In this document: in pieces, positions 7,938 to 63,976 of the stretch
How the letters are laid out: every line of letters starts with the position of its first letter
Position numbering within the stretch: position 1 is the stretch's first letter
NCBI RefSeq assembly: GCF_009662475.1
Contig: NZ_CP045571.1
Location: 1,672,501-1,736,500 of the forward strand
Origin: Acidithiobacillus thiooxidans ATCC 19377
GTDB taxonomy: Bacteria; Pseudomonadota; Gammaproteobacteria; Acidithiobacillales; Acidithiobacillaceae
Direction of reading: 5' to 3'
Length of the DNA stretch: 64,000 nucleotides
Position numbers and translations under genes: made by a program
The notes under the pieces: generated by a model
Database searches by the model: none
What the model was told of the DNA's origin: nothing
The model's input: only the letters and a program-made list of their open reading frames with translations

Positions 7938-8246
7938 TTACCGGGCGGCGTCACCCGCAGAAGTATTGCCGCCCTGCGATTTCCGAATCGTTTTCAGATT
8001 TTTGACCCGCACGGAAAAACCCATCCCGGCACGCTCAAAGCGAAAGCCCACCGCACGCAGCTGTTCTTCGTGGTTTTTGGCTAGTTCGCCTTTTTTGTAT
8101 TTGTAGCGCACATCATTCGCCCAATATCCCATACGGGTTCTGGGTTCCGTGTCATAACGCACCGGAATCCAGCCTGTACCATTCTCCGCACAGTACTGTT
8201 TCACCTGTTCCAGTCGTTCTTCAAACCGCAGGTTATGCCGTGACAT
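7938..8246 (-). CDS. Small HA-domain-like (putative DNA-binding) protein
   Basis: A 102-residue protein, RFEERLEQVKQYCAENGTGWIPVRYDTEPRTRMGYWANDVR at its core, strikingly similar to the N-terminal domain of the downstream MT-A70 methyltransferase. Helicase-associated domains of this type bind DNA, so this may be a detached targeting domain or a regulator that binds the same sites. It overlaps both neighbours by a few bases, the mark of a tightly coupled operon. The similarity to the methylase domain is directly visible; the function is inferred. Confidence 0.75.
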   Translation of the reverse strand: MSRHNLRFEERLEQVKQYCAENGTGWIPVRYDTEPRTRMGYWANDVRYKYKKGELAKNHEEQLRAVGFRFERAGMGFSVRVKNLKTIRKSQGGNTSAGDAAR

Positions 8247-8952
8247 TTAACGCCTCCTTATTGACAATCAACTCCAAAAAACCACCGCGATGATCGTAAT
8301 TCGCCAGAACTGCTCCGTTAAAAGCCTGCCGGCGTTTGGCGACCACGCCTTTGCGAAAAACAATGCGCAACATTTTTTCGGTCTGCTCGATTTCCGCCTG
8401 GGACACGTCCTCACACAAGTGAAAGAGGTCCATTTGCGTTTCCTTGCCTATCCAGTAGCGGCGCTTTCGTCCACTACCCTCTCCAATCACACGGCCATGG
8501 GCGACCATTTCCGCAAGGATTTGCGACACCTCATGTTCAGAACGGGCACTGGGGCAGGCTCGCAAAATATCCTGCTTACTGCGTACAGGTTTGGTATCCG
8601 TCTCAAAAACGGGTGGCTTTAAACACGCCAGGATTTCCGTACGCACCGCATCCCGATCGGAATAAAGCGCAACCGGTTCACGCGCGGTATGTTCAATCTG
8701 CTGAACCATTGCCAACAAATCATCTGAAGCGACAAAAGCATGGTCCACCAGCTTCCAAACCGGTTTTCCACGTGCACCTGTTCCTAACTTTTCGACAATT
8801 CCTCTACGCTTGAGCACATAAACCTGCTGTGAAACATGATGGGGTTCTGGGTGGGCAGGAATGAGCCGGCTTAATCGTTCGACGGTGGTCGGTGCTCCCT
8901 CGAACTTTAACGCGGCGCATATCCAGCGTTGTATTGATCTTCCGGTTAACAT
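8233..8952 (-). CDS. Putative winged-helix DNA-binding protein
   Basis: A 239-residue protein, first gene of the minus-strand operon with the HA-domain protein and the methyltransferase. The N-terminal half (SIQRWICAALKFEGAPTTVERLSRLI ... QVYVLKRRGIVEKLG) reads as a winged-helix fold, and a second similar segment occurs around residues 105-165 (VRTEILACLKPP ... VSQILAEMVAHGRVIGEG). The C-terminal ~60 residues are unrecognised. It may regulate the operon or be part of a modification system. No family name can be given with confidence. Confidence 0.65.
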   Translation of the reverse strand: MLTGRSIQRWICAALKFEGAPTTVERLSRLIPAHPEPHHVSQQVYVLKRRGIVEKLGTGARGKPVWKLVDHAFVASDDLLAMVQQIEHTAREPVALYSDRDAVRTEILACLKPPVFETDTKPVRSKQDILRACPSARSEHEVSQILAEMVAHGRVIGEGSGRKRRYWIGKETQMDLFHLCEDVSQAEIEQTEKMLRIVFRKGVVAKRRQAFNGAVLANYDHRGGFLELIVNKEALNVTA

Positions 8953-9185
8953 GGTTCGATTCCTTGTTCCAATGACCTTATAAACAGATTACCACGCCCT
9001 TTTTGACACAAAATTTTTTGGTCATATTCCGTCGTAAATCCTCTGGCCTGAACTCTCTGCGCAATAGACTGGCACATGGATGATCGGTTTTTGCGCACAA
9101 TAAACCGCTTTTTTAGCGTTTATTCGAAAAGTGGATCGTCCTCATCATCGCTCAGCGGGCAGGACACCGGACCGATAACTTCCCA
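8953..9185. promoter_or_regulatory. Divergent promoter region between the methylase operon and virB11
   Basis: On the minus strand a TTTATAAGG (8977-8985) lies upstream of the 8952 start and may be its -10 box, with TTTGTGTCAA-like sequence upstream. On the plus strand, A/T-rich inverted segments around TTTTTTAGCG (9110-9120) precede the virB11 promoter module. No gene is visible here. Confidence 0.45.
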
Positions 9186-17824: not shown

Positions 17825-17890
17825 ACACGGAAAAAAGGCACTTAATAAAACCAAAAAGAGCGTTGACCCGTGCCAAGCTATGCACTCCAA
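17825..17890 (+). promoter_or_regulatory. Promoter module copy H (before the 18033 gene)
   Basis: ATAACACG then GAAAAAAGGC starting at 17830, then TTAATAAAA, with a TATGCA-like box at 17879. The A-tract and TTAAT match the other copies; the distance to the -10-like box is a few bases longer. Confidence 0.55.
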
Positions 17891-18032
17891 GCTCTCTCGA
17901 CTTTCTTCGAGGGCGACCGTCCAGGGCGTTACACTGGAAATTTCCGCAGACAGGTCGCTCCTGTTTGCCTTTTGTCCCTTGGGGGTCATGTGCCCTCAAG
18001 GCCATGATCCCCTCCTACGTAGGAGAGAAACC

Positions 18033-18539
18033 ATGGAACTGTTGTTTATTTCGTTATTTTTCTGGGCAGCTGTTATTTGGGCCATTAGAACGGCCATTGT
18101 GTCCCGCAAAACCGGCCATGAGGCCACTATCGCCAAGGCGCAGGCGGAAATCGCTCGCCTCAAGGCGGAACAAGCCGGCGTAGTTCAGCCGGCCGCACCA
18201 GCCCCTGCTCCCAAGGTAGGTCCGTCAAAGGCTGCCACCGCTGCGAAAGCAGTAGGTAAGGCTGCCGCCTGGACTGCTCCACGCATCGTTGCTGGGACTG
18301 CAGTCGTTAGCAAGGCCTCCGTCAAGGGAGCCAAAGCAACCATCGTTCAAGTGAGCGAATGGAAAAAGGCCAAAGCAGCGGCGAAAGCCCCTGTGCAGCC
18401 TGCCGAAACCCCTGCCTCTGGCGGCAATGTGTTGACGCCTGAACAGGAAAAAACCATGACCGAAACCCCCGCATTTATGCGCGCTGGTAAGGTCATCAAC
18501 CTCGCAGAACAACGCGATTCTCGCCATACGCTGCACTAA
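18033..18539 (+). CDS. Single-pass membrane protein with Ala/Lys-rich tail
   Basis: A 168-residue protein starting at the ATG preceded by TAGGAGAG; the frame is open 153 bases further upstream but that part has no ribosome site. Residues 1-20 form a membrane anchor, residues 25-50 a charged helix, followed by a Pro/Ala linker and an Ala/Lys-rich region resembling histone H1-like tails (KAATAAKAVGKAAAWTAPR). Such a tail could bind DNA or form a flexible helix. It has its own promoter module and terminator, so it is a one-gene transcription unit. Confidence 0.65.
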   Translation: MELLFISLFFWAAVIWAIRTAIVSRKTGHEATIAKAQAEIARLKAEQAGVVQPAAPAPAPKVGPSKAATAAKAVGKAAAWTAPRIVAGTAVVSKASVKGAKATIVQVSEWKKAKAAAKAPVQPAETPASGGNVLTPEQEKTMTETPAFMRAGKVINLAEQRDSRHTLH

Positions 18540-45183: not shown

Positions 45184-46410
45184 TTACTCTGGAGAACAGA
45201 CTACCCCGACAAGCCCTGCCGTTGACGCAACCCCATGTGAGGTTGCTAGTCCTCTTGCGAGGATGTTCTGTGCCGCATTCACGTCGGCATGTGCTTCATG
45301 CCCACAGTGCAGGCAGCGAAATACCGCCTGATCGGGGCGATTTCCGGCATCCACCACACCACAAACCGAACAGGTCTGCGAGGTATAGGCCGGATTCACC
45401 AAAAATAGCATGCCACCGGCCCACTGGAGCTTATAGTCCAGTATCCGTTTGAGTAGGCCCCATCCCTGATCAAGGATGGATTTGTTCAATCCTGATTTCT
45501 GCCGGATATTGCGTCCGGGTTTATCCACGGTACCCTTTGCGGATGCCGTCATGTTCCGCACATTCAGGTCTTCCAGCACCACGACCGCGTGGTTTTTGCT
45601 GATGGTGGTGCTGACCTGATGAAGCACGTTTTTCCGTATTTCCGCGATACGCTGGTGCAATCGCGTAATTTTGGCCTTCTGTTTCTTCCAGTTGGCCGAA
45701 AACTTCACTTTGTGCGCGAGCTTTCTTTGCTCCCGCGCTAGTTTCTTCTGCAAATCCCGATAGGCGGTTACTGGCAGAAACATGGTGCCATCGGACAATG
45801 TAAGCAGGTTCGCTACTCCCCGGTCGCCACCGACCGCTGTAGTGGAGGGATGCACGGGGTCCGGCACTTCTTTTTCGGTCTGTATGGCGACATACCAGTG
45901 ACCACCCGACCGGCTGACGGTGACATTGCGGATTTCGCCGCCAATGATGCAGGATTTGCGAAATTTCACCCAGCCAATACACGGCAGGAAGATTTTGGGG
46001 AGCACCTTACGGCCATCCCGATCAACGGGATTCAGATCAAAGTGAATATGGCCCGGTTCTGGGTAGCGCATGCTGTCGTGGACGAACTTCTTTTTGAAAT
46101 TCGGGAATTTTTTGACCGAGTTCTTATTAAATGCCTCTTTCAACGCCTGCGTCAGATATCTGAGGGTCTGCTGTTGCGGCATCGACGGGGATTCTGCGAG
46201 AAACCCAAAGGCTTCCGAATTGCGCCAGGACGTGAGTAGTTCGCACAGACCGGCATAATTCAGGGTGCCGCAATGTTGATCGAGATAGCTCTTCTGCACG
46301 GCCAGCGCCCGGTTCCAGACGAAGCGCACGCAGCCGACCGCACGGGCCAGAAGATTGTCCTGCTCCGGAGTGGTTTCGAGACGGTAGCGCACGGCTTTGC
46401 GAATCAGCAT
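45184..46410 (-). CDS. tnpB: TnpB RNA-guided nuclease (IS200/IS605 family)
   Basis: A 408-residue TnpB. The RuvC catalytic residues appear intact: Asp196 in GGDRGVANL, Glu280 in VVLEDLNVRNM and Asp376 in HADVNAAQNI. The zinc ribbon CSVCG...CLHCG is at residues 347-370. N-terminal helix-turn part VRYRLETTPEQDNLLARAVGCVRFVWNRAL is typical. TnpB cuts DNA at sites matching its omega RNA and helps retain the element. A TATAATTATAC promoter-like box lies just upstream (46416-46426, minus strand). Coding is full length without stops, so it is likely active. Confidence 0.95.
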   Translation of the reverse strand: MLIRKAVRYRLETTPEQDNLLARAVGCVRFVWNRALAVQKSYLDQHCGTLNYAGLCELLTSWRNSEAFGFLAESPSMPQQQTLRYLTQALKEAFNKNSVKKFPNFKKKFVHDSMRYPEPGHIHFDLNPVDRDGRKVLPKIFLPCIGWVKFRKSCIIGGEIRNVTVSRSGGHWYVAIQTEKEVPDPVHPSTTAVGGDRGVANLLTLSDGTMFLPVTAYRDLQKKLAREQRKLAHKVKFSANWKKQKAKITRLHQRIAEIRKNVLHQVSTTISKNHAVVVLEDLNVRNMTASAKGTVDKPGRNIRQKSGLNKSILDQGWGLLKRILDYKLQWAGGMLFLVNPAYTSQTCSVCGVVDAGNRPDQAVFRCLHCGHEAHADVNAAQNILARGLATSHGVASTAGLVGVVCSPE

Positions 46411-46540: not shown

Positions 46541-46680
46541 TTTGGTAAAAGAAAATCCTGCTTTCTCCCCATTTATTGGGCCGGGCGGCACCCGGTAAAA
46601 ACAGTCTTTTTACTCACCCTATAGGGACAAATCCCTATGGGGGATTTAGTCCCTTTTCATTGCAAAAGGAGACATATCCC
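46541..46680 (+). promoter_or_regulatory. Hairpin leader of the 46681 gene
   Basis: Holds CCGGG-CGGCA-CCCGG (46581-46595) followed by TAAAAACAGTC, then CCCTATAGGGA ... TCCCTATGGGGG paired segments, then AAAAGGAG. Same hairpin family as 44266 and 50316. Confidence 0.6.
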
Positions 46681-46971
46681 ATGTTAAGTAAAGGCACCTA
46701 TCAGTTTGTTATGTCCAAAATCCAGAGCGCCAATAATGGCGAACTCCTGGTAATGAAGGACCAATTACGCGAGCTTTTGCGTCATCCCATTTCGGTAGAT
46801 GCAGAACTCATGCGCGACACCAAGAAATTGTTGAAAAAAATCGATGAAGAATTGGATGCGCGGTATGACCTGTATCTTAGCGACCAGCGTCAACGCCAGC
46901 GTCAGCAGGCGAAGCATACACCAGCTTCGGCTTCGGGCGCCCGCATTTACCCATTTCGTAATCTCTCTTGA
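46681..46971 (+). CDS. Small helical protein, unknown function
   Basis: A 96-residue protein starting at the ATG preceded by AAAAGGAG. Highly charged helices (residues 5-70) and a Gln/Arg-rich segment (DQRQRQRQQAKH) end in a short tail. No family recognised. Its last 95 bases overlap the convergent gene 46877-47101 on the other strand, which is unusual for this compact region. Confidence 0.65.
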   Translation: MLSKGTYQFVMSKIQSANNGELLVMKDQLRELLRHPISVDAELMRDTKKLLKKIDEELDARYDLYLSDQRQRQRQQAKHTPASASGARIYPFRNLS

Positions 46972-47167: not shown

Positions 47168-47467
47168 ATGAACAAACAAGGACTCACCACTGCCCTGGCG
47201 GAGACATTGCGCGTGGATAACGCCAATGCATCCCGCTTGGCGGGGCGGTTTATTCTTTTGGGGAAAAAGTACCGAAAGAACCTGCTCCGCCAAGTAAACG
47301 GCGCACCCATGGCTGCGCAACTCAGCAAGACGGAAGCGGAGATTAAAAATCTCTGCGACCGCTTGGCCCTCCGCTACAAAATTGTCGAAGATGTCAGAGG
47401 TCCTATCCTCAGACTGTATCTCAACAACTTTTGGAGGGAAGGTTGCGTGGTGGAGGACGGGCTATGA
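47168..47467 (+). CDS. Small protein upstream of sbcD
   Basis: A 99-residue protein from the ATG after GAGGAGAAA. Begins MNKQGLTTALAETLRVDNANASRLAGRF and ends overlapping the sbcD start by four bases (ATGA). Basic middle (LLGKKYRKNLLRQVNG). No family recognised; translational coupling to sbcD suggests a nuclease-associated role. Confidence 0.65.
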   Translation: MNKQGLTTALAETLRVDNANASRLAGRFILLGKKYRKNLLRQVNGAPMAAQLSKTEAEIKNLCDRLALRYKIVEDVRGPILRLYLNNFWREGCVVEDGL

Positions 47468-49041
47468 AGATCGCCCAATTCTCCGACCTACACTATTGTC
47501 CTGAACATCTGGACGAGGTGGATCGTTGCTTCTCTGCAGCCGTCGAAGCGGCCATTGAGGAAGGCGTGGAAGTGGCCGTTATCAGCGGCGATTCCACGGA
47601 CCACCGGGTCGATCTGCATAGTTTGTCCGTGCAGAGACTCTCGGAACGCATTCACACCCTGTCCAATCATTGTCCGGTACTGATGTTGCAGGGCACCTTT
47701 TTCCATGAACCATTGGGTACGCTCGAAGTGTTTCAGTATGTGGGCGGCAAATACCCGATTTTTGTGGCGACCGATATTCAACAGGTCGCTCTTACCGAAG
47801 ACAATGCCTGGGTCAGTTCTCTCTCTGGGGAAACTCCCCATTTTGTGTTTACCGAGGAAACCTTACCCAAAAATACCAAGGCCTTGTTTTCTTGCCTGCC
47901 GACCGTGAACAAAGCAGAAATGGTCTCCGCCATTGCGGCAGACGATCATGCTGCACTGGGAGATGTATTGGCCGAATTGTTGTCGGCCTTCGCACCCATA
48001 AACACCGTGGCCCGGGAAAAGCATATCCCGACCATCGGGGTTTCGCACGGCACGGTGCATGGTTGCCTCACAGAGCATGGGGTCCCAATGATTGGATTCG
48101 ATCATGAATTCACAACGGGAAGCCTGTTTGCCAGTAAAGTACAGGCTTACATGCTCGGTCACATCCACAAACACCAGGTCTGGGAAAACGCATTGCCGCA
48201 ATATGGCACACAACGCATTGCCTACCCAGGTTCCATTGGTCGTCTGCATTTTGGTGAAGAAGGCGACAAAGGCTGGCTGTTTTGGGAGATCGATTATCGC
48301 AATGCCGCCTGTATGCTGATGCCTGCTCCGGCAAAGCAACTCTTGCATATCGATTTTGAAGCAGCACCGGACGTTGCGGAGATACAGAAAGTGGTCGGGG
48401 AAAACCCGGGGGCTTTTGTCCGTATCCGCTACAACATTCCGGAAGACCAGCGTCATACCGTGGACCGCGATAGTTTGCAAAAAATCGTGGAACAGGCCGG
48501 CGCCAAATCCGTCAAGATTGAAGGTCGCATTATTCCTGTCGTGCGGGTCCGCGCACAAGGTATCAGCCAGAGCAAAACGCTCGAAGAAAAACTGCGCAAA
48601 TGGTGTGAAAACACCCATTGCGAGGCGGCCCCTCTGGTCGGTCGATTGCCCTTATTGGTCAACGACGATGCAGAGACCATAGCGAGCGATCTGATGCACG
48701 GGAAACCACCGGTTCCCCCAACATCCGCTGATAACGGGCCTGCAGTATCCGTAACAGACAATCCGGTTTCGGTAACGCCCGATGTAATGCCGGTAACGCC
48801 AGGTGTAACGCATGTAACGCCTGATGTAACGCCTGATGTAACGCCTGATGTAACGCCTGATGTAACGCCTGATGTAACGCCTGATGTAACGCCTGATGTA
48901 ACGCCTGATGTAACGCCGGTAACGCCCGATGTAATGGACGCTGTAACGCATCCTGACAAGCCGGCCGACCATCCTGTGGAAACCCGGAACGCAAAGAAAC
49001 AAACACCCCAGCAGGAAGTTGACCTGCTCGATCTTTTTTAA
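47464..49041 (+). CDS. sbcD: SbcD/Mre11-like nuclease subunit
   Basis: A 525-residue calcineurin-type phosphoesterase. Motif I is DLH (Asp8, His10), motif II GDSTD (Asp43, Asp46), motif III GTFFHE at residues 77-82 in place of the usual GNHD/E, then His195 in GVSHGTVHG and GHIH at 232-235. A capping domain reaches to about residue 410. A linker of VTPD repeats follows (coded by a 12-bp tandem repeat), and the protein ends QQEVDLLDLF, which looks like a clamp-binding motif. Next to it are the clamp gene and sbcC, forming a phage T4 gp45/46/47-like set for end processing in recombination. Confidence 0.88.
   Translation: MKIAQFSDLHYCPEHLDEVDRCFSAAVEAAIEEGVEVAVISGDSTDHRVDLHSLSVQRLSERIHTLSNHCPVLMLQGTFFHEPLGTLEVFQYVGGKYPIFVATDIQQVALTEDNAWVSSLSGETPHFVFTEETLPKNTKALFSCLPTVNKAEMVSAIAADDHAALGDVLAELLSAFAPINTVAREKHIPTIGVSHGTVHGCLTEHGVPMIGFDHEFTTGSLFASKVQAYMLGHIHKHQVWENALPQYGTQRIAYPGSIGRLHFGEEGDKGWLFWEIDYRNAACMLMPAPAKQLLHIDFEAAPDVAEIQKVVGENPGAFVRIRYNIPEDQRHTVDRDSLQKIVEQAGAKSVKIEGRIIPVVRVRAQGISQSKTLEEKLRKWCENTHCEAAPLVGRLPLLVNDDAETIASDLMHGKPPVPPTSADNGPAVSVTDNPVSVTPDVMPVTPGVTHVTPDVTPDVTPDVTPDVTPDVTPDVTPDVTPDVTPVTPDVMDAVTHPDKPADHPVETRNAKKQTPQQEVDLLDLF
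48766..48944 (+). repeat. 12-bp tandem repeat in sbcD
   Basis: Units of GTAACGCCTGAT, at least eight nearly perfect (about 48819-48915) with degenerate units on both sides, coding V-T-P-D. Clean tandem copies point to recent slippage and probable length variation. Confidence 0.93.
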
Positions 49042-50689: not shown

Positions 50690-51754
50690 ATGAATCAGCA
50701 ATCTCAAAAAACAGGAAAAACGGTGTTCGTTCCGGTCATGGACCGGGACGGAAAAACACCGTTGATGCCGACAACGCCTTCGCGGGCACGACGGTGGATA
50801 CAGCGCGGAGAGGCCACGCCTTTTTTCAAAAAGGGCGTGTTCTGCATACGCCTGAACCGTGCGCCATCCGGTCAGAAAACGCAGTCCGTCGTGGCTGCTG
50901 TGGATCCGGGTTCCAAACGGGAAGGGTTTACCGTCAAGTCACGGGCGCACACTTATCTGAACATACAGACAGAAGCCGTCACCCAGGTCAAGGATGCGGT
51001 GAAAACCCGATCCGAAATGCGGCGCGGGCGGCGATTTCGTAAGACCCCGTGTCGCAAGCCGGGACCTGCCAACGCCATGATGCGTAAAGAAAACCGGATA
51101 CCGCCCTCAACAAAGGCCCGTTGGGGCTGGAAGTTGCGGGTGCTCCACTGGCTCTGCGCCTTATTTCCAGTAACGGATATTGGCGTAGAAGATGTGCAGG
51201 CGGCTACCCGAAAAGGTAAACGGAAATGGAATGTGTCCTTTTCGCCTCTGCAAGTAGGCAAGGACTGGTTCTACGAAGAAATCCGGCACATGGGCGTGAC
51301 CTTGCATCTGCGGGCTGGATTCGAAACGAAGACGCTGCGGGACAGGCTGGGATTGAAAAAGACCAGCAATAAACTCGCAGAGACCTTCGCTGCGCATTGT
51401 GTGGATTCCTGGGTAATCGCCTGGGACATTGTGGGTGGAGTGGAATCTCCGGACAATCGGGATCTGCTCTGCATCCAACCGATTCGGTTACATCGTCGGC
51501 AACTACACCGTCTGCAACCGCAAAAAGGCGGTGAACGGCTACCCTACGGCGGCACCCGCAGCCACGGCTTCAAGCGCGGCTCTCTGGTGCGTCATGCCAA
51601 ATGGGGACTGGCCTATGTCGGCGGAATTCTGAAAGACCGAATCAGCCTGCATTGCATCGAAAATGGAAAACGACTCACACAAAAAGCGAAACCAGCAGAA
51701 TGCCGGTTTCTCACGTTCAATGCTTGGAAGTTTCACTGCGTAGCGCATACTTAA
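50690..51754 (+). CDS. isrB: IsrB RNA-guided nickase-like protein (IscB relative lacking HNH)
   Basis: A 354-residue protein. The N-terminal PLMP domain is clear (PLMPTTPSRARRWIQRG, residues 24-40). RuvC-I Asp72 (AAVDPGSKREG), an Arg-rich bridge helix (RRGRRFRKTPCRK, residues 111-123), RuvC-II Glu167 (IGVEDVQAAT) and RuvC-III His236/Asp239 (AAHCVDSW) are all present. RuvC-II and III are only about 70 residues apart, leaving no room for an HNH domain, which defines IsrB against IscB. IsrB uses an omega RNA and nicks one strand. Start after ATAGGAGAA. Confidence 0.9.
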   Translation: MNQQSQKTGKTVFVPVMDRDGKTPLMPTTPSRARRWIQRGEATPFFKKGVFCIRLNRAPSGQKTQSVVAAVDPGSKREGFTVKSRAHTYLNIQTEAVTQVKDAVKTRSEMRRGRRFRKTPCRKPGPANAMMRKENRIPPSTKARWGWKLRVLHWLCALFPVTDIGVEDVQAATRKGKRKWNVSFSPLQVGKDWFYEEIRHMGVTLHLRAGFETKTLRDRLGLKKTSNKLAETFAAHCVDSWVIAWDIVGGVESPDNRDLLCIQPIRLHRRQLHRLQPQKGGERLPYGGTRSHGFKRGSLVRHAKWGLAYVGGILKDRISLHCIENGKRLTQKAKPAECRFLTFNAWKFHCVAHT

Positions 51755-51768
51755 AAGGAGATGCGGGA

Positions 51769-51837
51769 ATGGGGCGGTCATCGACCGCCGCGCTATCCAC
51801 CCCCGGCATGAATGCCGGGGTTTCCCGCGCAAACTGA
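51769..51837 (+). CDS. Short ORF at the IS end, possibly coupling sbcC translation
   Basis: A 22-codon ORF from an ATG with AAGGAG 8 bases upstream, running through the right-end hairpin of the IsrB element. Its TGA overlaps the sbcC ATG (TGATG at 51835-51839). The product is probably unimportant; the arrangement could feed ribosomes to sbcC, which has no Shine-Dalgarno of its own here. Confidence 0.4.
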   Translation: MGRSSTAALSTPGMNAGVSRAN

Positions 51838-54269
51838 TGAATCCGCTGAAACTCACTCTTGAAGGGTTCGCCGGCATTTACTCGGGCCGGAAACGGGACA
51901 AACTCACGTTGGATCTGCCCGATCTTTCTGCGGGCCTGCTAGTCGCCCTGGTTGGGCCTAATGGGTCTGGAAAGTCCACCATCATGGACAACTTACACCC
52001 GTATCGCATCATGCCCTCCAGGGCCGGCGGCTCTTACAGCCCGAACGCCTTCAGTTTTTATGAACAACTCAGTAGTGAGGAAGCCTGCAAGGAACTTTTT
52101 TGGGAGCATGCTGGCATTCGCTATCGGTCTTTATTCAAATTCCAGAACGGCAAACGTCGCAAGACAGAAGCCTATCTTTTTGTGCTGGATGAAAACGACA
52201 ATAGCGAACCGGCCGCAAACGGCAACCTCGTCAGCGATGGGAAAACGGATACCTACGATAAAGTGCTGGAAAGCATTCTCGGCAGTCCGGACACCTTTTT
52301 CACCAGCGTTTTCTCCGCGCAAAATCGCAAACCCATTTCCAGTTATGGTAATGCCGAAATCAAGGGACTCATGGCGGAGTTACTCGGCCTGGATTCCATC
52401 AAGGAACTCGGCAAAAAGGCGGCCCAGGTCAAAAACCTGCTCAAGGCAGAATTGTCCACGCAACAGGAAAAACTGGGTATGGCCCAAATGGCCAAACGCC
52501 AACACGAAGCCGCTCTGCATCAAGTCAGCGAAATGGAAAACACCATTGCGCAACTACAGACCGAAAAGCAGACCGCCCATACGCAGCTGCGCGAAGCGGA
52601 GCGGCAATTGGCGGCCATCACGGCACAAATCCAGCAAAGCGAAAGCGTCATTGCCCGCAAAGCCAGTCTGGAACAAAGCAAAGCCCACCTGGAAGAGCGT
52701 CTGCGTAAATTGCAGGCGCAACAGGTACAAAAGCAACAGCAACTGGAATCCGAGCATCAACGGGAAACCATCAGCCTGGAGCGGGATATCCTCTCTCTGC
52801 AAAAGTCCATGGAGACAGCTGAAGCGGAAATACAAAAGCTCCAGGATTTGCAATCTCGGGCGAAGTCCATTCAAGACGCTGTTCAGCAGGAACAGGCTTT
52901 ACGCGTGCAAATGGAGCATACCCAGCAAGAGATTGAAAAAAGGGAGTCGGCCTTATCCGCGCAAATTGCGCATGCTCAGGCATTGCAAAACACCATCACC
53001 CAACAAGCCCAGGATCTCAGCGTCATCAAGGCCAACGGCGAAAACCTGTCGCGGGAAAAAGCCGATGCAGAACGCCAATCGGCCTTGATTCAGGAAGTCC
53101 CCTGTTCGGGTACGGACCTGGCGCAACGCTGTAAATTGTTGGCGGATGCCCGCGCTGCGGGCGAGAAAATCCAGCCCATCACCATCCAGATATCGACGTT
53201 GCGGGAAAAATATCGTGCGGCGAAAGAAGCACTGGACCAAAAACGGGCCGCTTTAACAGCGGCCTCCGCCGAGGATCCGGAGCTGGTCGCCTGCAAAAAC
53301 CGGTTAAAGGCCATACAATCGACCCTGGCCAGTATCCATCCTTTAGTGATGGAAGCATCACTGCTGGAACAGGCTGAAAAACAGTTGGCGCAATGGTCAG
53401 AAACGCTCGCGGCTAAACAGCGCGAGCAGGCCGAAAAAACCGCGCGCAAAGCCCAGGCAACCACCGCATTTCAAGCGGCAATCACCGCCTTACCCCAGGA
53501 ATTTGCAGAAGAGACGGCGAATCTGGATGCGGAAATTCAACGGATTGTCACAGAATTGTCCGCCATCGTTCTGCCGGATATACAGTCAAAAGCAGAGAGA
53601 GAAAGCGCCTGCAAATTGGCAAGTGATACCCTGGAAAGGATAGAAACGGCTATCCAGCAAAGCCAGAACCGCTTGATTGATGCCAAGGCGCAAGCGCAAT
53701 CCCTGCTTTCCGCAGCGAACGACATATCCGCGCTCCAAGACCAGGTAAACCGGATGGGAGAGGAAATGAGGCACTGGGAAATGTTCATCAAAGCCTTCGG
53801 CAATGATGGCATTATCGCGCTGTCCATTGACGATGTAGGGCCAACCCTGTCGGCGTATGCCAATGATTTGTTGATGGCCTGTTATGGACCGCGTTTTACG
53901 GTATCTATCCAGACCCAAACCACCAATGCCAAGGGCGAAGACCGCGAAGGTTTTGATATTGCGGTGTTCGATGCGGAAACGCAGGAATCCAAGAGCGTTG
54001 AAAAAATGTCAGGCGGCGAGCGCGTCTGGATTAATGAAGCCATGACCCGGGCCATTGCCCTGTTCCTGGCCAAGGAATCCGGTCAGCAATACGCCACACT
54101 TTTTACCGATGAAGCCGATGGCGCCTTGGACCCCGACCGCAAGCGCCGTTTCATGCACATGAAGCGGGAAGTGCTCAAGTTGGGTGGTTACACCCGTGAG
54201 TATTTTGTCAGTCAGACCCCGGAACTATGGGAAATGGCCGACTACATTCTGGATGTTTCCAAGCTGTAA
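51837..54269 (+). CDS. sbcC: SbcC/Rad50-like ATPase subunit
   Basis: An 810-residue SMC-like protein. Walker A GPNGSGKST at residues 40-48, long coiled-coil arms (about residues 190-660) rich in Gln/Glu/Ala, and a C-terminal head with signature KMSGGERVW near residue 722 and Walker B TLFTDEADGALDP. The hook position carries CSGTDLAQRC near residue 422, a Cys pair with eight residues between rather than CxxC. It pairs with SbcD in DNA end processing. Its start is now separated from its leader by the IsrB element. Confidence 0.9.
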   Translation: MNPLKLTLEGFAGIYSGRKRDKLTLDLPDLSAGLLVALVGPNGSGKSTIMDNLHPYRIMPSRAGGSYSPNAFSFYEQLSSEEACKELFWEHAGIRYRSLFKFQNGKRRKTEAYLFVLDENDNSEPAANGNLVSDGKTDTYDKVLESILGSPDTFFTSVFSAQNRKPISSYGNAEIKGLMAELLGLDSIKELGKKAAQVKNLLKAELSTQQEKLGMAQMAKRQHEAALHQVSEMENTIAQLQTEKQTAHTQLREAERQLAAITAQIQQSESVIARKASLEQSKAHLEERLRKLQAQQVQKQQQLESEHQRETISLERDILSLQKSMETAEAEIQKLQDLQSRAKSIQDAVQQEQALRVQMEHTQQEIEKRESALSAQIAHAQALQNTITQQAQDLSVIKANGENLSREKADAERQSALIQEVPCSGTDLAQRCKLLADARAAGEKIQPITIQISTLREKYRAAKEALDQKRAALTAASAEDPELVACKNRLKAIQSTLASIHPLVMEASLLEQAEKQLAQWSETLAAKQREQAEKTARKAQATTAFQAAITALPQEFAEETANLDAEIQRIVTELSAIVLPDIQSKAERESACKLASDTLERIETAIQQSQNRLIDAKAQAQSLLSAANDISALQDQVNRMGEEMRHWEMFIKAFGNDGIIALSIDDVGPTLSAYANDLLMACYGPRFTVSIQTQTTNAKGEDREGFDIAVFDAETQESKSVEKMSGGERVWINEAMTRAIALFLAKESGQQYATLFTDEADGALDPDRKRRFMHMKREVLKLGGYTREYFVSQTPELWEMADYILDVSKL

Positions 54270-60108: not shown

Positions 60109-60906
60109 ATGAATGAAAGCGAAGCCGTTGCCATTATTCGCCGTGCCGCCTACAGCGTGGGTGGAAATTTTCGCAGATACCAATACCGCGTTTGCGACCC
60201 CATCAACGGCGGAAACAGCATGCTCGGTTTGAGTGACTTCCAAGCGGTCGAAGGAAAAGTCATTGCCATCGAAGAGGATGTTGTTGTTGTCCAGGAAGGC
60301 CGAAAAGCGATTTTTGTTGCCTTTGACCTGAACAACCTTGACCAGGTGCCTTCGGTTGGGGACAAGGTGAAAGTCACCCCGTATCAAAGACGCCGTTTTG
60401 ATGGCAAGCGCTTGAGCGACCCCGTTGAAGAGAAGCACGAAAATGGTTTTGTCTCCAAGGTGTACCATCTCGGAGAACAAGCCTCTAAAATTCCTGGCAT
60501 TACCGCCGATGCTTCACAATATCTGCAGGATATGGCCGAACAACTGGCGAATTTGCCTGCCGATTCGCGCCGCCGTATCACTCAGGTACTAATTGATGCC
60601 GGTGCATGGAAAAAACCTGTTCAGATCTTTGATGTGACCGAAGATGCGGACACGCATCTTTTGCCAAAACTGGTTTTTCATATTGAACAGGAAAACCAAA
60701 AAGGCACCTTGTCCGTCACTCTGGACCGTGCTGCAGATGCCTATGTGGTCGCCCTGGAAGAGGACGGTAAGGAACCCGTCATCCGTGAAGATTGTTATTT
60801 TGACGATCTTGGTTCGGTCATCAACGAGTTTATTGTGCATAACGATGACTGGTTAAAAGACCGTGTTGAAATCATCAAGAAGGCCGCTAAGAAGAAGGCC
60901 AGTTAA
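60109..60906 (+). CDS. Hypothetical protein with a KfrB-like beta domain
   Basis: A 265-residue protein starting after CAGGAG. Residues 45-95 (VEGKVIAIEEDVVVVQEGRKAIFVAFDLNNLDQVPSVGDKVKV) look like the small beta domain found in KfrB and related plasmid proteins. The remainder is helical (SQYLQDMAEQLANLPADSRRRITQVLIDAG), with a basic C-terminus (KKAAKKKAS) that could contact DNA. The domain match is by pattern only. Last but one gene before a hairpin at 60917-60946. Confidence 0.65.
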   Translation: MNESEAVAIIRRAAYSVGGNFRRYQYRVCDPINGGNSMLGLSDFQAVEGKVIAIEEDVVVVQEGRKAIFVAFDLNNLDQVPSVGDKVKVTPYQRRRFDGKRLSDPVEEKHENGFVSKVYHLGEQASKIPGITADASQYLQDMAEQLANLPADSRRRITQVLIDAGAWKKPVQIFDVTEDADTHLLPKLVFHIEQENQKGTLSVTLDRAADAYVVALEEDGKEPVIREDCYFDDLGSVINEFIVHNDDWLKDRVEIIKKAAKKKAS

Positions 60907-61427: not shown

Positions 61428-61443
61428 AAAACTGCGCGTAAGC

Positions 61444-61627
61444 AATATCAAAATACCTAGAACCAAGATATTTTGATATTCCCTACTCTTACGGTTTATC
61501 AAGAGCGACTACCCGGAGCGTTATACCGGGGATTCCATCCGCAGGTTATCGAGCCTGCTATCCACCCTATAGGGTACACCAACCCTATAGGGCCATGGTG
61601 TGCCCTTCTATTTAATGGAGACACATC
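61444..61627 (+). ncRNA. Five-hairpin leader RNA, copy 1
   Basis: Stems in order: AATATCAAAATA/TATTTTGATATT (61444-61480), CTCTT/AAGAG (61486-61505), CCCGG/CCGGG around an AGCGTTATA-like loop (61512-61530), GCAGG/CCTGC (61541-61558), and GGGTACACC/GGTGTGCCC (61572-61605) with an inner CCCTATAGGG. The gene's ribosome site follows. Homologous to the leaders at 62511 and 63569, with compensatory changes in stems 1, 2, 3 and 5. Confidence 0.82.
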
Positions 61628-61840
61628 ATGAACATCATCGAAGCTAAAAGGCAAAAAGGACTTAAGTATATGGCTCTAAAGATGGCTTTGGAGGCACCCA
61701 ACGAAACATTAAACGCCATATATCAATCGGGAATGCCGGAAGATGAGATAAAAGATTTAAAGTATATTATAAATGCTGCCCGGCGTGCTCCTGGCTACGA
61801 TCCTGAGAAGGATCTCATCTTAAAAATGAATATAGCCTAG
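61628..61840 (+). CDS. Small protein behind leader copy 1
   Basis: A 70-residue protein with TGGAGAC upstream. Mainly helical (NIIEAKRQKGLKYMALKMALEAPNETLNAIYQSGM). Not recognised and not obviously related to the proteins behind leader copies 2 and 3. It converges on the minus-strand gene 61837-62079 with a four-base overlap. Confidence 0.65.
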   Translation: MNIIEAKRQKGLKYMALKMALEAPNETLNAIYQSGMPEDEIKDLKYIINAARRAPGYDPEKDLILKMNIA

Positions 61841-62079
61841 TCGGGCATATCAATGTCATCAATGGCCGGCAAGTTTGGATTCTCCATTCTTGCTGCCTCA
61901 TAGATTTTTTCAAGCACATCATATCTGCCAACATCGGCAATGGCTTCTATGGATTTTGCAAGCGCTTCCCCAAGTTCTGCTTCATTGAAAACCACTTTGT
62001 CAGCAGATGTACCACCTAGTTGGATGAACTCTTTTTCTTGTTGCGCAGTAAGAATTGTTTTTCCAGCGAAATGCAACAT
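61837..62079 (-). CDS. Small protein, minus strand
   Basis: An 80-residue acidic protein, start ATG at 62079 with GAGAGG upstream (a TTG at 62088 is possible). It begins MLHFAGKTILTAQQEKEFIQLGG and has a helical middle and acidic end (IDDIDMPD). Unrecognised; faces the leader-RNA gene in convergent orientation, an arrangement repeated twice more in the next 2 kb. Confidence 0.6.
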   Translation of the reverse strand: MLHFAGKTILTAQQEKEFIQLGGTSADKVVFNEAELGEALAKSIEAIADVGRYDVLEKIYEAARMENPNLPAIDDIDMPD

Positions 62080-62166
62080 GGCAATCAACCTCTCAATGTG
62101 AATGCTACATTAGAAGTGTATCACACAAAGTATCCCAACCTCTTTCATGGTTTGGCATACCCATTA

Positions 62167-62478
62167 TCAAGACCCATGCCCAGATTGGATAAGTCTGTCA
62201 AACGCTAAACTATTAGCCCTACGGAACGCCTTAAAAAAGGTATTACGGTTTCTCAAATAATCATGCATATTCATCCCCGCCAGGGCAAACAATCGCGCGT
62301 ACTCTGGCTCAGCCCTTCTCGTGATTCTGAAAGTTCCGCTATCCGTGTCTTGTATCAGGTTTTCCGAAATGGTTCGCAAAGAGAAACTGCCTAATTCTTT
62401 CTCCATGTCAACCAGCAGCGCCTTTGCTTGCGTATCGGAAAAACCACACTCCTGTAACAATTCCTGCATACTTTTCAT
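62167..62478 (-). CDS. Small protein, minus strand
   Basis: A 103-residue protein from an ATG after AAGGACTG; the frame is open 27 bases further upstream. It begins MKSMQELLQECGFSDTQAKALLVDMEKELGSFSLRTISENLI and contains a putative helix-turn-helix-like region around ARLFALAGMNMHDYLRNRNTF. DNA-binding is possible but unproven. Confidence 0.6.
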   Translation of the reverse strand: MKSMQELLQECGFSDTQAKALLVDMEKELGSFSLRTISENLIQDTDSGTFRITRRAEPEYARLFALAGMNMHDYLRNRNTFFKAFRRANSLAFDRLIQSGHGS

Positions 62479-62510
62479 AAAACAGTCCTTAAAAGCAACC
62501 CACAAAAGTC

Positions 62511-62700
62511 AGAATACCACAGCGATCGTCATCCGCTCGATCCCTTTGGTATTCCTTACCTTTGTGGTTCAACAAAGGCGACCACCGGCAGCGTTATAGC
62601 CGGGAATCACTCAGCAGGCCACCCGGTCTGTTTTCCGCCCAATGGGCTACACCACCTCCATTGGGGGCCATGGTGTGCCCTTTACTCAAAGGAGAAACAC
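62511..62700 (+). ncRNA. Five-hairpin leader RNA, copy 2
   Basis: Stems: AATACC...GGTATT (62513-62553), CCTTTG/CAAAGG (62559-62578), CCGGC/GCCGG around AGCGTTATA (62585-62603), CAGGCC/GGTCTG (62615-62630) and GGGCTACACC/GGTGTGCCC (62644-62680) with an inner CTCC...GGGG. Stems differ from copy 1 but pairing is kept. Confidence 0.82.
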
Positions 62701-62701
62701 C

Positions 62702-62896
62702 ATGATTACCATTGAAGAAGTTTTTGCCATGGATGAGCGGCATTGGGATGACTTCCTGATGCGTGCATCTAAAGATGAAATACGACCGCTTATTTTAGCG
62801 TTCCAACGAATGATCCAGGATAATGGAGAATCCAATATATCTAAACGGTATATCCGCCGGTATAAAGAAGCGGTTTCCGTTTACAAGGTCATTTAG
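62702..62896 (+). CDS. Small protein behind leader copy 2
   Basis: A 64-residue protein starting after AAAGGAGAAAC. Helical, charged (MITIEEVFAMDERHWDDFLMRASKDEIRPL). Unrecognised. Its end overlaps the convergent minus-strand gene by eight bases. Confidence 0.65.
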   Translation: MITIEEVFAMDERHWDDFLMRASKDEIRPLILAFQRMIQDNGESNISKRYIRRYKEAVSVYKVI

Positions 62897-63245
62897 TGTC
62901 ATTTCTGACCTGCTCATACTCATTGACTGCCGCTACCAGTTCTTCTGGTGCGGCTGTCAGACATTTCAATGCCGCGCGCTCACAAGGACTCATAAAACGC
63001 TTTATCCGTAAATCTTTTTCAGACTCGTCAGTCGTCTCTCGAAAAGCTATAACCGCGACACGACGTACGGCATATTGTAAATCTGTCTTGGTTTTGATTT
63101 TTCGTGGGTCAACCCCTGCATACCTGAATTTTGGCCACCAGAATTTCTTGCCATTACCAGTGAACAAAATGCGTCCATCCTCAGCTTCTATAAAAGCCTG
63201 AGTAATATCACTTCCTTCAGAAAGCATCACCTCTGCTGGATCCAT
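62889..63245 (-). CDS. Hypothetical protein, minus strand
   Basis: A 118-residue protein with a mixed fold; begins MDPAEVMLSEGSDITQAFIEAEDGRILFTGNGKKFWWPKFRY and has a basic middle and helical end. Unrecognised. Convergent to the gene behind leader copy 2. Confidence 0.6.
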   Translation of the reverse strand: MDPAEVMLSEGSDITQAFIEAEDGRILFTGNGKKFWWPKFRYAGVDPRKIKTKTDLQYAVRRVAVIAFRETTDESEKDLRIKRFMSPCERAALKCLTAAPEELVAAVNEYEQVRNDTK

Positions 63246-63332
63246 AGAATCACCAACCTGATTTTAGAAACAGAAACCAATGACATATTTTGACAAACCA
63301 ACGTCAAAAGCCATGTTCATGAGCAAGAAATA

Positions 63333-63521
63333 CTATCTCGAATCCATTTTGACAAGCGACAGTTTCATCGCATTTCTTTTACGCATCATGTCAACCAAAC
63401 GATCTGCATCATCAGGCCGACCTTCCAAAATAGCCAATAAAGCATTTTTCTCTATCTCACTGCCACCCTTGCGGTTTCTGATGCGCTGAGCGGCCTCACA
63501 AAATTCAAAAATTGGTTTCAT
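63333..63521 (-). CDS. Small protein, minus strand
   Basis: A 62-residue basic helical protein from an ATG after GTGAGG (frame open 12 bases further). MKPIFEFCEAAQRIRNRKGGSEIEKNALLAILEGRPDDADRLVDMMRKR. Could be a small DNA-binding or regulatory protein; unrecognised. Confidence 0.55.
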   Translation of the reverse strand: MKPIFEFCEAAQRIRNRKGGSEIEKNALLAILEGRPDDADRLVDMMRKRNAMKLSLVKMDSR

Positions 63522-63568
63522 GAAAAACCTCACTAATGATTAAAGCAATTGTTTTACCATAACGGAGA

Positions 63569-63757
63569 GCATACCACAGCAACTGTCACAAACACGGTTC
63601 CTGCGGTATTCCCTACTCTTGTGGTTTATCAAGAGCGACCACCAGCAGCGTCATAGCTGGGATTCCATCAGCAGGCCATCCGGTCTGCTTTCTTACCCAA
63701 CGGGGTACACCTACCCCTTTGGGGCCATGGTGTGCCCCTTTTTCTAGGAGATACACC
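63569..63757 (+). ncRNA. Five-hairpin leader RNA, copy 3
   Basis: Stems: ATACC..CAG..AAC / GTT..CTG..GGTAT (63571-63609), CTCTTG/CAAGAG (63616-63635), CCAGC/GCTGG around AGCGTCATA (63642-63660), AGCAGGCC/GGTCTGCT (63670-63689) and GGGGTACACC/GGTGTGCCCC (63702-63738) with inner CCCC-TTT-GGGG. Confidence 0.85.
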
Positions 63758-63976
63758 ATGCATAATCCTCGCAAAATATTTGAAAATTGGTTAAAGAGCG
63801 CCAGTAATGGCGCAATTTATGCCAAAGCAGACGAAATCAGGTGCCAGTTCGGCACCGACAGCAGCATGAATAGGGCTTGCAGAGTTTTTCTAAAACTCTG
63901 TAAGGAAGAACTCCAGGTCCGTGAGGACTTGGGAGCCCTCGAAAATCGCCGCCAACTCTTGGGAGGTGCAGCATGA
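63758..63976 (+). CDS. Small protein behind leader copy 3
   Basis: A 72-residue helical protein from the ATG after TAGGAGATAC. MHNPRKIFENWLKSASNGAIYAKADEIRCQFG followed by a Cys/Leu-rich helix. Not recognised. It overlaps the next start by four bases (ATGA). Confidence 0.65.
   Translation: MHNPRKIFENWLKSASNGAIYAKADEIRCQFGTDSSMNRACRVFLKLCKEELQVREDLGALENRRQLLGGAA

Follow-up and report, generated by a model that had tools for sequence, protein, structure and literature searches.

Three leader RNAs of Acidithiobacillus thiooxidans ATCC 19377, each ending at the start codon of a small gene, share a 69-nt core that can adopt two mutually exclusive folds, and we consider it probable that each leader acts in cis as a translational switch of the gene directly behind it, mostly OFF by default. 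The leaders, which we named A, B and C, lie on a putatively integrated conjugative element within a 64,000-nt stretch of the genome (contig NZ_CP045571.1, positions 1,672,501 to 1,736,500), hereafter referred to as the window. They had been picked out in an earlier reading of the window (the original prediction), whose interpretation is partly supported by our analysis. That reading recognized the conserved leaders and missed their functional core, which is a strand able to pair with either an upstream arm or the start codon.

Three homologous leaders with covarying stems

All three leaders are on the + strand and display the same anatomy (coordinates are those of the window). Leader A (61440-61630) consists of the hairpins P0 (61444-61480), P1 (61486-61505), P2 (61512-61530), P3 (61541-61558) and P4 (61565-61592), followed by a switching strand (61593-61605), a Shine-Dalgarno sequence GGAG (61617-61620) and the start codon at 61628. 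In leader B (62508-62704), P0 to P4 correspond to 62512-62554, 62559-62578, 62585-62603, 62613-62632 and 62638-62665, the switching strand to 62668-62680, GGAG to 62691-62694 and the start codon to 62702. In leader C (63565-63760), P0 to P4 are found at 63571-63609, 63616-63635, 63642-63660, 63670-63689 and 63696-63723, the switching strand at 63725-63737, GGAG at 63747-63750 and the start codon at 63758. The three sequences align over ~150 columns with a mean column identity of 87%, which confirms the homology originally claimed for them. Their folding energies of -64.6, -76.4 and -77.6 kcal/mol for A, B and C, respectively, correspond to z-scores of -5.75, -5.40 and -5.82 when compared with dinucleotide shuffles, none of which (0/200 for each leader) was as stable.

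In the three-copy alignment, 96.1% of the 102 cells are paired and both sides are altered in 5 of the 34 pairs, while versions of the structure slid along the alignment, used as a control, are only 36-50% paired. The covariation score was reached by none of 500 shuffles, and the count of further pair types by 30 of 500. The stem pairs quoted in the original prediction are correct, with the qualification that change in stem 3 is mostly one-sided (two-sided in 1/8 pairs). Rfam release 15 gave no match at the gathering threshold in the whole window, and relaxing the thresholds brought up no match over any leader, in keeping with the original remark that no described family with this layout was known; near leaders outside the window, relaxed matches were all below gathering (E 0.03 or weaker). 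By eye, no leader-peptide frame is conserved across A, B and C.

As had been proposed, we built a covariance model from leaders A, B and C, referred to as R1, which found more copies. A second model, R2, describes the core and was made from 35 of 43 distinct cores, eight being left out. R2 matches leader A at 61564-61630 (62.0 bits), B at 62637-62704 (53.5 bits) and C at 63695-63760 (66.0 bits), the three cores being among those used to train it.

A core that can form two competing helices

The core is organized in the order CCC-GGG-X1-CCC-GGG-X'-CCC-spacer-GGAG-X2-ATG. Strand X' (CCATGGTGTGCCC), which is invariant in leaders A, B and C, has two possible partners in each of them. The upstream partner X1 (segment 2 and the P4 loop) reads GGGTACACCA or a close form, while the downstream partner X2, which contains the start codon, reads ACACCATG (ACACATCATG in A). 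In a first fold, termed state S, P4 is formed (segments 1 and 4, and 2 and 3, are paired) and X' is left to form helix P5 with X2, the region of the start codon. In a second fold, termed state T, the partners of X' and segment 5 are segment 2 and X1, and P4 is excluded. As a bare pattern allowing two mismatches, CCATGGTGTGCCC is not found beyond chance (three occurrences, all exact, for 2.19 expected).

Both helices were assessed by a swap test, in which the own segments of each copy are compared with segments swapped in from other copies. This was done on 43 RNA-found copies and on 27 protein-found copies reached via DUF3577 genes, one of which (L067) also figures in the RNA-found set. The protein-found copies are 27 of 32 distinct leaders from 79 starts, four wrongly chosen starts and L121 having been dropped, while L076 had no start. 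Helix T, which is contained in neither R1 nor R2, is much more stable with own than with swapped segments in the RNA-found set (-15.5 vs. -10.9 kcal/mol; z = -12.0, 0/5000) and also in the protein-found set (-10.7 vs. -8.8 kcal/mol; z = -4.6, 0/5000). Helix P5 behaves similarly in the RNA-found set (z = -6.8, 0/5000).

In the energy model, state S is lower than state T in 35/43 and 22/27 copies, with a median gap of ~5.5 kcal/mol. The unpaired fraction computed for the ribosome site rises from 0.35 in S to 0.62 in T in the 43-copy set, and from 0.45 to 0.67 in the 27-copy set, this site being more open in T in 36/43 and 22/27 copies. The core thus combines, by computation, two mutually exclusive helices of which one covers the start region, as in translational RNA switches.

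Further copies in the window and beyond

While the three copies originally described are all real, their number was too low. R1 reveals a fourth one, leader D (17889-18037, + strand; E = 3.6e-11), ~3 kb after the gene for a VirB4-type ATPase, in which P1 (17894-17913), P2 (17920-17938), P4 (17977-18001), a switching strand from 18002 and a start codon at 18033 can be delineated. R2 scores it at 19.9 bits (E = 0.21). When A-D are considered together, 97.7% of P1 and P2 cells are paired and 7 of 11 pairs show two-sided change for 3.0 in shuffles, a count reached by 1/500 shuffles. A candidate fifth copy, E (46614-46683, + strand), comprises the core only, with P4 CCCTATAGGGACAAATCCCTATGGGGG, switching strand GGATTTAGTCCC and a start codon at 46681. 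It was picked by a permissive fold filter and by eye, is detected by neither R1 nor R2, and was kept among the 43 RNA-found copies in the tests of helices, energies, strand, U tract and segment-1 blocking. D and E follow the same pairing logic with other letters, X' of D being CCATGATCCCC. The upstream domain P0-P3, common to A, B and C, is partly present in D and by eye absent from the copies in a congeneric genome (G005).

Outside the window, draws of genomes were searched, with E-values that are per genome. Among 369 genomes of the class, 23 were matched by R1 at E≤0.1, a level at which ~37 chance matches are expected, and 11 (own included) at E≤0.0027, for ~1 expected. Several genomes carry more than one copy (seven in G295, four in G105, two each in G141 and G138). 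The phylum draw gave 7/398 genomes (own included) at E≤0.001, for 0.4 expected, while in the genus 2/17 genomes are clear (own and G005), a third (E = 0.048) being at chance level. Class and phylum tallies are lower bounds, scoring having been limited to the 8 or 12 top-ranked first-look candidates of each genome. Leader A searched against plasmids and leader C against Escherichia coli genomes gave no matches.

R2 produced 112 matches at E≤1 in 23 stretches, its own training copies included. In the 105 distinct rows, 150 cells are changed on both sides, compared to 68.7 (standard deviation 6.5) in shuffled versions and no more than 40 in slid ones, which, together with the shuffles of A-C, bears out the covariation, and hence the selection on a folded leader, that had been claimed from three copies. 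Because this alignment was fitted to the model, we added a route through the protein DUF3577. The best 80 of 196 loci were fetched by protein, and R2 was run on 37 of those 80, many loci being close relatives in Pseudomonas. In 34/37 loci, the DUF3577/STY4534 gene has the core at its start (E≤0.5; misses: L087, L121 and L137). In one segment of the Pseudomonas aeruginosa plasmid pY89, which is typed as conjugative (MOBH) and which we take to be of the pKLC102 kind, R2 gave 10 matches at E≤1, and 9 of them stop at the ATG with which an annotated coding sequence begins, one of these sequences being a replication gene of the STY4534 family. That the leader is the conserved part, as originally stated, is therefore supported with many more homologues.

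A match to a known repeat type, such as a miniature inverted-repeat transposable element (MITE), had been named as an outcome that would overturn the original reading. The pY89 matches speak against a mobile repeat placed without regard to gene starts, weakly so because R2 includes the ATG. As for a viral home, we claim none: of five stretches of viral contigs containing the pattern ACACC-GGTGT-GGAGNNACACCATG, two were matched weakly by R2 (E = 0.14 and 0.68) and three had no match. Two simpler detectors were discarded: a plain X-X'-X repeat scan recovered only part of the copies, and a fold filter applied to all start codons passed 684 of 3,544 starts. Apart from candidate E, the counts above rest on model matches and protein-found leaders only.

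How the switch may work

The sequences show that the leaders are homologous and similarly arranged, that their stems covary and that two helices compete. From where the start codon lies, we infer that S is the OFF state and T the ON state. In state S, the start codon would be held in the P5 stem and the Shine-Dalgarno sequence in its loop or stem, preventing translation, while in state T both would be more open and translation would proceed. The default is expected to be OFF because S is more stable in most copies and because P4 is transcribed first, leader D being an exception. Blocking of segment 1 or P4, be it by the upstream P0-P3 domain when a factor is bound to it or in transcripts starting inside the leader, might shift the core to T. 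In silico, blocking segment 1 opens the ribosome site clearly in leader C (0.15 to 0.62), with a smaller effect in leaders A (from 0.08 to 0.25) and B (from 0.24 to 0.39). On an integrated element, accessory and establishment genes could in this way be kept silent and then be released together. The upstream domain may be the sensing part, as may a hairpin with a GGTT loop seen in some other genera (13/66 upstream regions, counted with no control run). By eye, a GGATCG loop in leaders L060, L053, L064 and L066 can pair with a downstream CGATCC across a second hairpin, so that the upstream domain might contain a pseudoknot.

Several observations weigh against this scheme. The gap between S and T exceeds 5 kcal/mol in 24/43 and 15/27 copies, and state T may thus be rare unless helped. 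Conversely, in leader D the energy model places T below S (-26.2 vs. -24.0), with 69% of the start region unpaired. The mean effect of blocking segment 1 is small, from 0.30 to 0.35 in the 43-copy set (p = 0.027) and from 0.36 to 0.43 in the 27-copy set (p = 0.13), with a rise of more than 0.02 in 18/43 and 12/27 copies, and candidate E closes rather than opens (0.48 to 0.38). Helix P5 is only modestly better with own than with swapped segments in the protein-found set (z = -2.6, 49/5000), the RNA-found set was chosen with a model that includes P4 and P5, and the automatic segment borders are wrong for some copies (e.g., L133, L140 and L050). Many of the Pseudomonas R2 matches are weak (E 0.001 to 0.2), and L167 and L168, segments with radC or DUF932 genes from two further conjugative plasmids, gave none at E≤1. 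Finally, the count of G-U vs. A-C cells, expected to favor a sense RNA, is neutral (observed/expected 0.87 and 0.88).

Alternative explanations

The readings weighed here, ours included, are not mutually exclusive, and the probabilities that we attach to them need not sum to one. The original prediction had also considered a structure used when the element is single-stranded during transfer. We weighed this as a single-stranded DNA promoter, or another structure carried by the transferred strand, of the Frpo/ssi type, which would be active upon entry into the recipient. The arrangement is similar, with repeated structured leaders placed before antirestriction and related genes (ArdC, antirestriction, RadC and DUF932 are among the leader-borne products). 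Against it, the core is fixed to the ribosome site and start codon, and it is mainly because of this tie that we favor RNA over transferred DNA. After correction by shuffles, folding is better for the sense than for the antisense strand in 33/43 copies (p = 0.0003; a sense-strand model had served to choose this set) and in 17/27 (p = 0.049), although the wobble counts are neutral. A simple consensus scan of the A-C region found no + strand sigma-70-like site inside the leaders, and promoter-like sites on both strands number 3 for 4.8 expected. R2 had no match at E≤5 in positions 48000-67000 of the F plasmid, a region with ssb, psiB and antirestriction genes in which the Frpo position is not annotated. 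In addition, copy D sits among conjugation genes. A role in single-stranded transfer, including a template-strand promoter in single-stranded DNA, is thus not supported, and we regard it as very unlikely.

Transcription attenuation, with helix T (segments 2 and 5) as the intrinsic terminator and P4 as the antiterminator, would account for the U run (TTTTTC) after the stem in leader C and some homologues. Yet a U tract is not general, since at least five T within the eight bases after helix T are found in only 11/43 and 6/27 copies. Moreover, the two terminator-like sites in the leader region (61589 and 63721), which are formed by short alternative stems, are not above chance (2.9 expected). 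Attenuation also leaves the conserved pairing with the start codon unexplained. Overall, we consider it improbable, and terminator function to be at most occasional. A static insulator without signal, which would hide the ribosome site upon read-through and let the gene be made only from leader-internal transcripts, is compatible with the S and T folds, and such leaders have been described for some transposases and phage genes. It would fit the stability of S in most copies, the dense arrays of genes with short spacers and the opening of leader C upon blocking of segment 1. However, there is no promoter-like site inside A-C, and a plain hairpin would suffice for this purpose, leaving the conserved helix T and P0-P3 unexplained; we therefore see it as a minority possibility. 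Equally compatible with the two folds, as their trigger, is binding by a CsrA/RsmE-type protein to GGA in loops. The Shine-Dalgarno GGA does lie within the P5 loop, and CsrA paralogues on plasmids and integrative and conjugative elements are reported (PMC7366521). Nevertheless, GGA is present in most Shine-Dalgarno sequences, and a simple N-terminal motif search of the window and four partly overlapping 20-kb flanks, which is a weak test, found no such protein. A CsrA-type trigger appears to us quite improbable. We thus retain the start-codon switch as our preferred reading.

Relation to known systems and significance

Translational riboswitches and attenuators set an anti-sequestor against a sequestor of the ribosome site, and the present leaders would work alike. 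They differ in having no known ligand, in occurring in several copies per element before unrelated genes and in switching sequences that differ from copy to copy. The DUF3577 RNA motif, reportedly described by Weinberg et al. in 2017, is said to be a structured RNA found before DUF3577 and other non-homologous genes. The present core is likewise found at the start of DUF3577 genes, and the two may overlap. Should they be the same RNA, its existence and position were known, and the two-state start-codon mechanism and the spread would be new. In open-licence literature mentioning DUF3577, no title or abstract was about an RNA.

In role, the nearest analogue is EGeRS1 of the Bacillus pLS20-family plasmids, for which conserved multi-hairpin leaders are described before several establishment operons, e.g., ardC, with no strong promoter found and a mechanism unknown (PMC8708921). 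EGeRS1 differs in measuring 400-600 bp and in belonging to a different host phylum, and no start-codon switch is described for it in the sections consulted. Frpo/ssi elements, which are described as promoters in a DNA hairpin that work on single-stranded DNA (PMC11541004), similarly are repeated structured leaders before anti-defense genes of conjugative elements. They differ from the present leaders in that they are DNA-hairpin promoters, of which our limited promoter and F scans gave no sign.

More tentatively, and with the doubt outweighing the confidence, the leaders might represent an undescribed class of regulatory RNA and, taken together, an establishment regulon that operates at the RNA level. 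In this view, a common two-state start-codon switch would precede up to ~10 unrelated anti-restriction, replication and accessory genes on conjugative elements of Gammaproteobacteria (single records being labeled otherwise). The switching sequences would be free to drift, and a single physical cue, given by the entry or excision of the element, would release all these genes without a protein regulator. How establishment genes are silenced and then briefly expressed on entry is an open question outside the cases of single-stranded DNA promoters and repressors. A shared, computable switch on integrative elements and a plasmid, including in Pseudomonas, would make that question testable by leader-reporter fusions. 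The covariance signature could also locate establishment and anti-defense genes by their leader when the proteins are unfamiliar.

Genes behind the leaders and their surroundings

All leader-bearing genes of the window are on the + strand. Those behind A (61628-61840; 70 aa) and B (62702-62896; 64 aa) belong to no family, the one behind C (63758-63976; 72 aa) to no Pfam family, and those behind D (18033-18539) and candidate E (46681-46971) encode 168 and 96 aa. The view that these genes are unrelated holds for A, B and C, which have no mutual BLASTP match at E≤0.01, but not for C and the gene behind candidate E, which are homologous (E = 6e-5). Gene C is also linked by BLASTP to leader-bearing genes in G005 and G329. 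Six of 44 leader genes, C and E included, form one small family (BLASTP E≤0.01) with a shared [ES]EL..R.D[LI] motif. Leader-borne genes are otherwise mostly unrelated to one another: a family scan of the 44 proteins identified DUF3577 (three, two of them 96% identical), RadC (three), DUF932 (two, 94% identical), as well as single instances of ArdC N-terminal domain, antirestriction, DUF3150, DUF6573, AAA and others. Between 61837 and 63533, the leader-bearing plus-strand genes are interleaved with four minus-strand frames of 83, 112, 118 and 66 aa, none of which has an accepted Pfam family (one match was below cut-off).

Products of the host element include a coupling protein of the TraG/TraD type, a VirB4-type ATPase and SSB, and the element is taken to be integrated because it lies within a 3.4-Mb single-contig genome. 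Just upstream of the leader array, a gene at 60109-60903 (+) encodes a KfrB-domain protein (E = 2.2e-7), which as a single query found no relative in the genome contigs searched. A TnpB/IS605 OrfB protein is encoded at 45187-46410 (-), ~200 bp from candidate E (OrfB_IS605, E = 4e-25; Cas12f1-like TNB, E = 2e-23). Shortly after a leader array outside the window, in L004, a frame at 7971-8983 is transposase-like and by eye resembles IS30. The window also encodes an SbcD-like metallophosphatase with a C-terminal TPDV repeat (47464-49038, +) and an SbcC/SMC-like ATPase (51837-54266, +). Between these two genes lie an unassigned one of 383 aa and one for an RRXRR protein (50690-51751, +; E = 9.5e-34), RRXRR presumably being the N-terminal part of IscB-type proteins.

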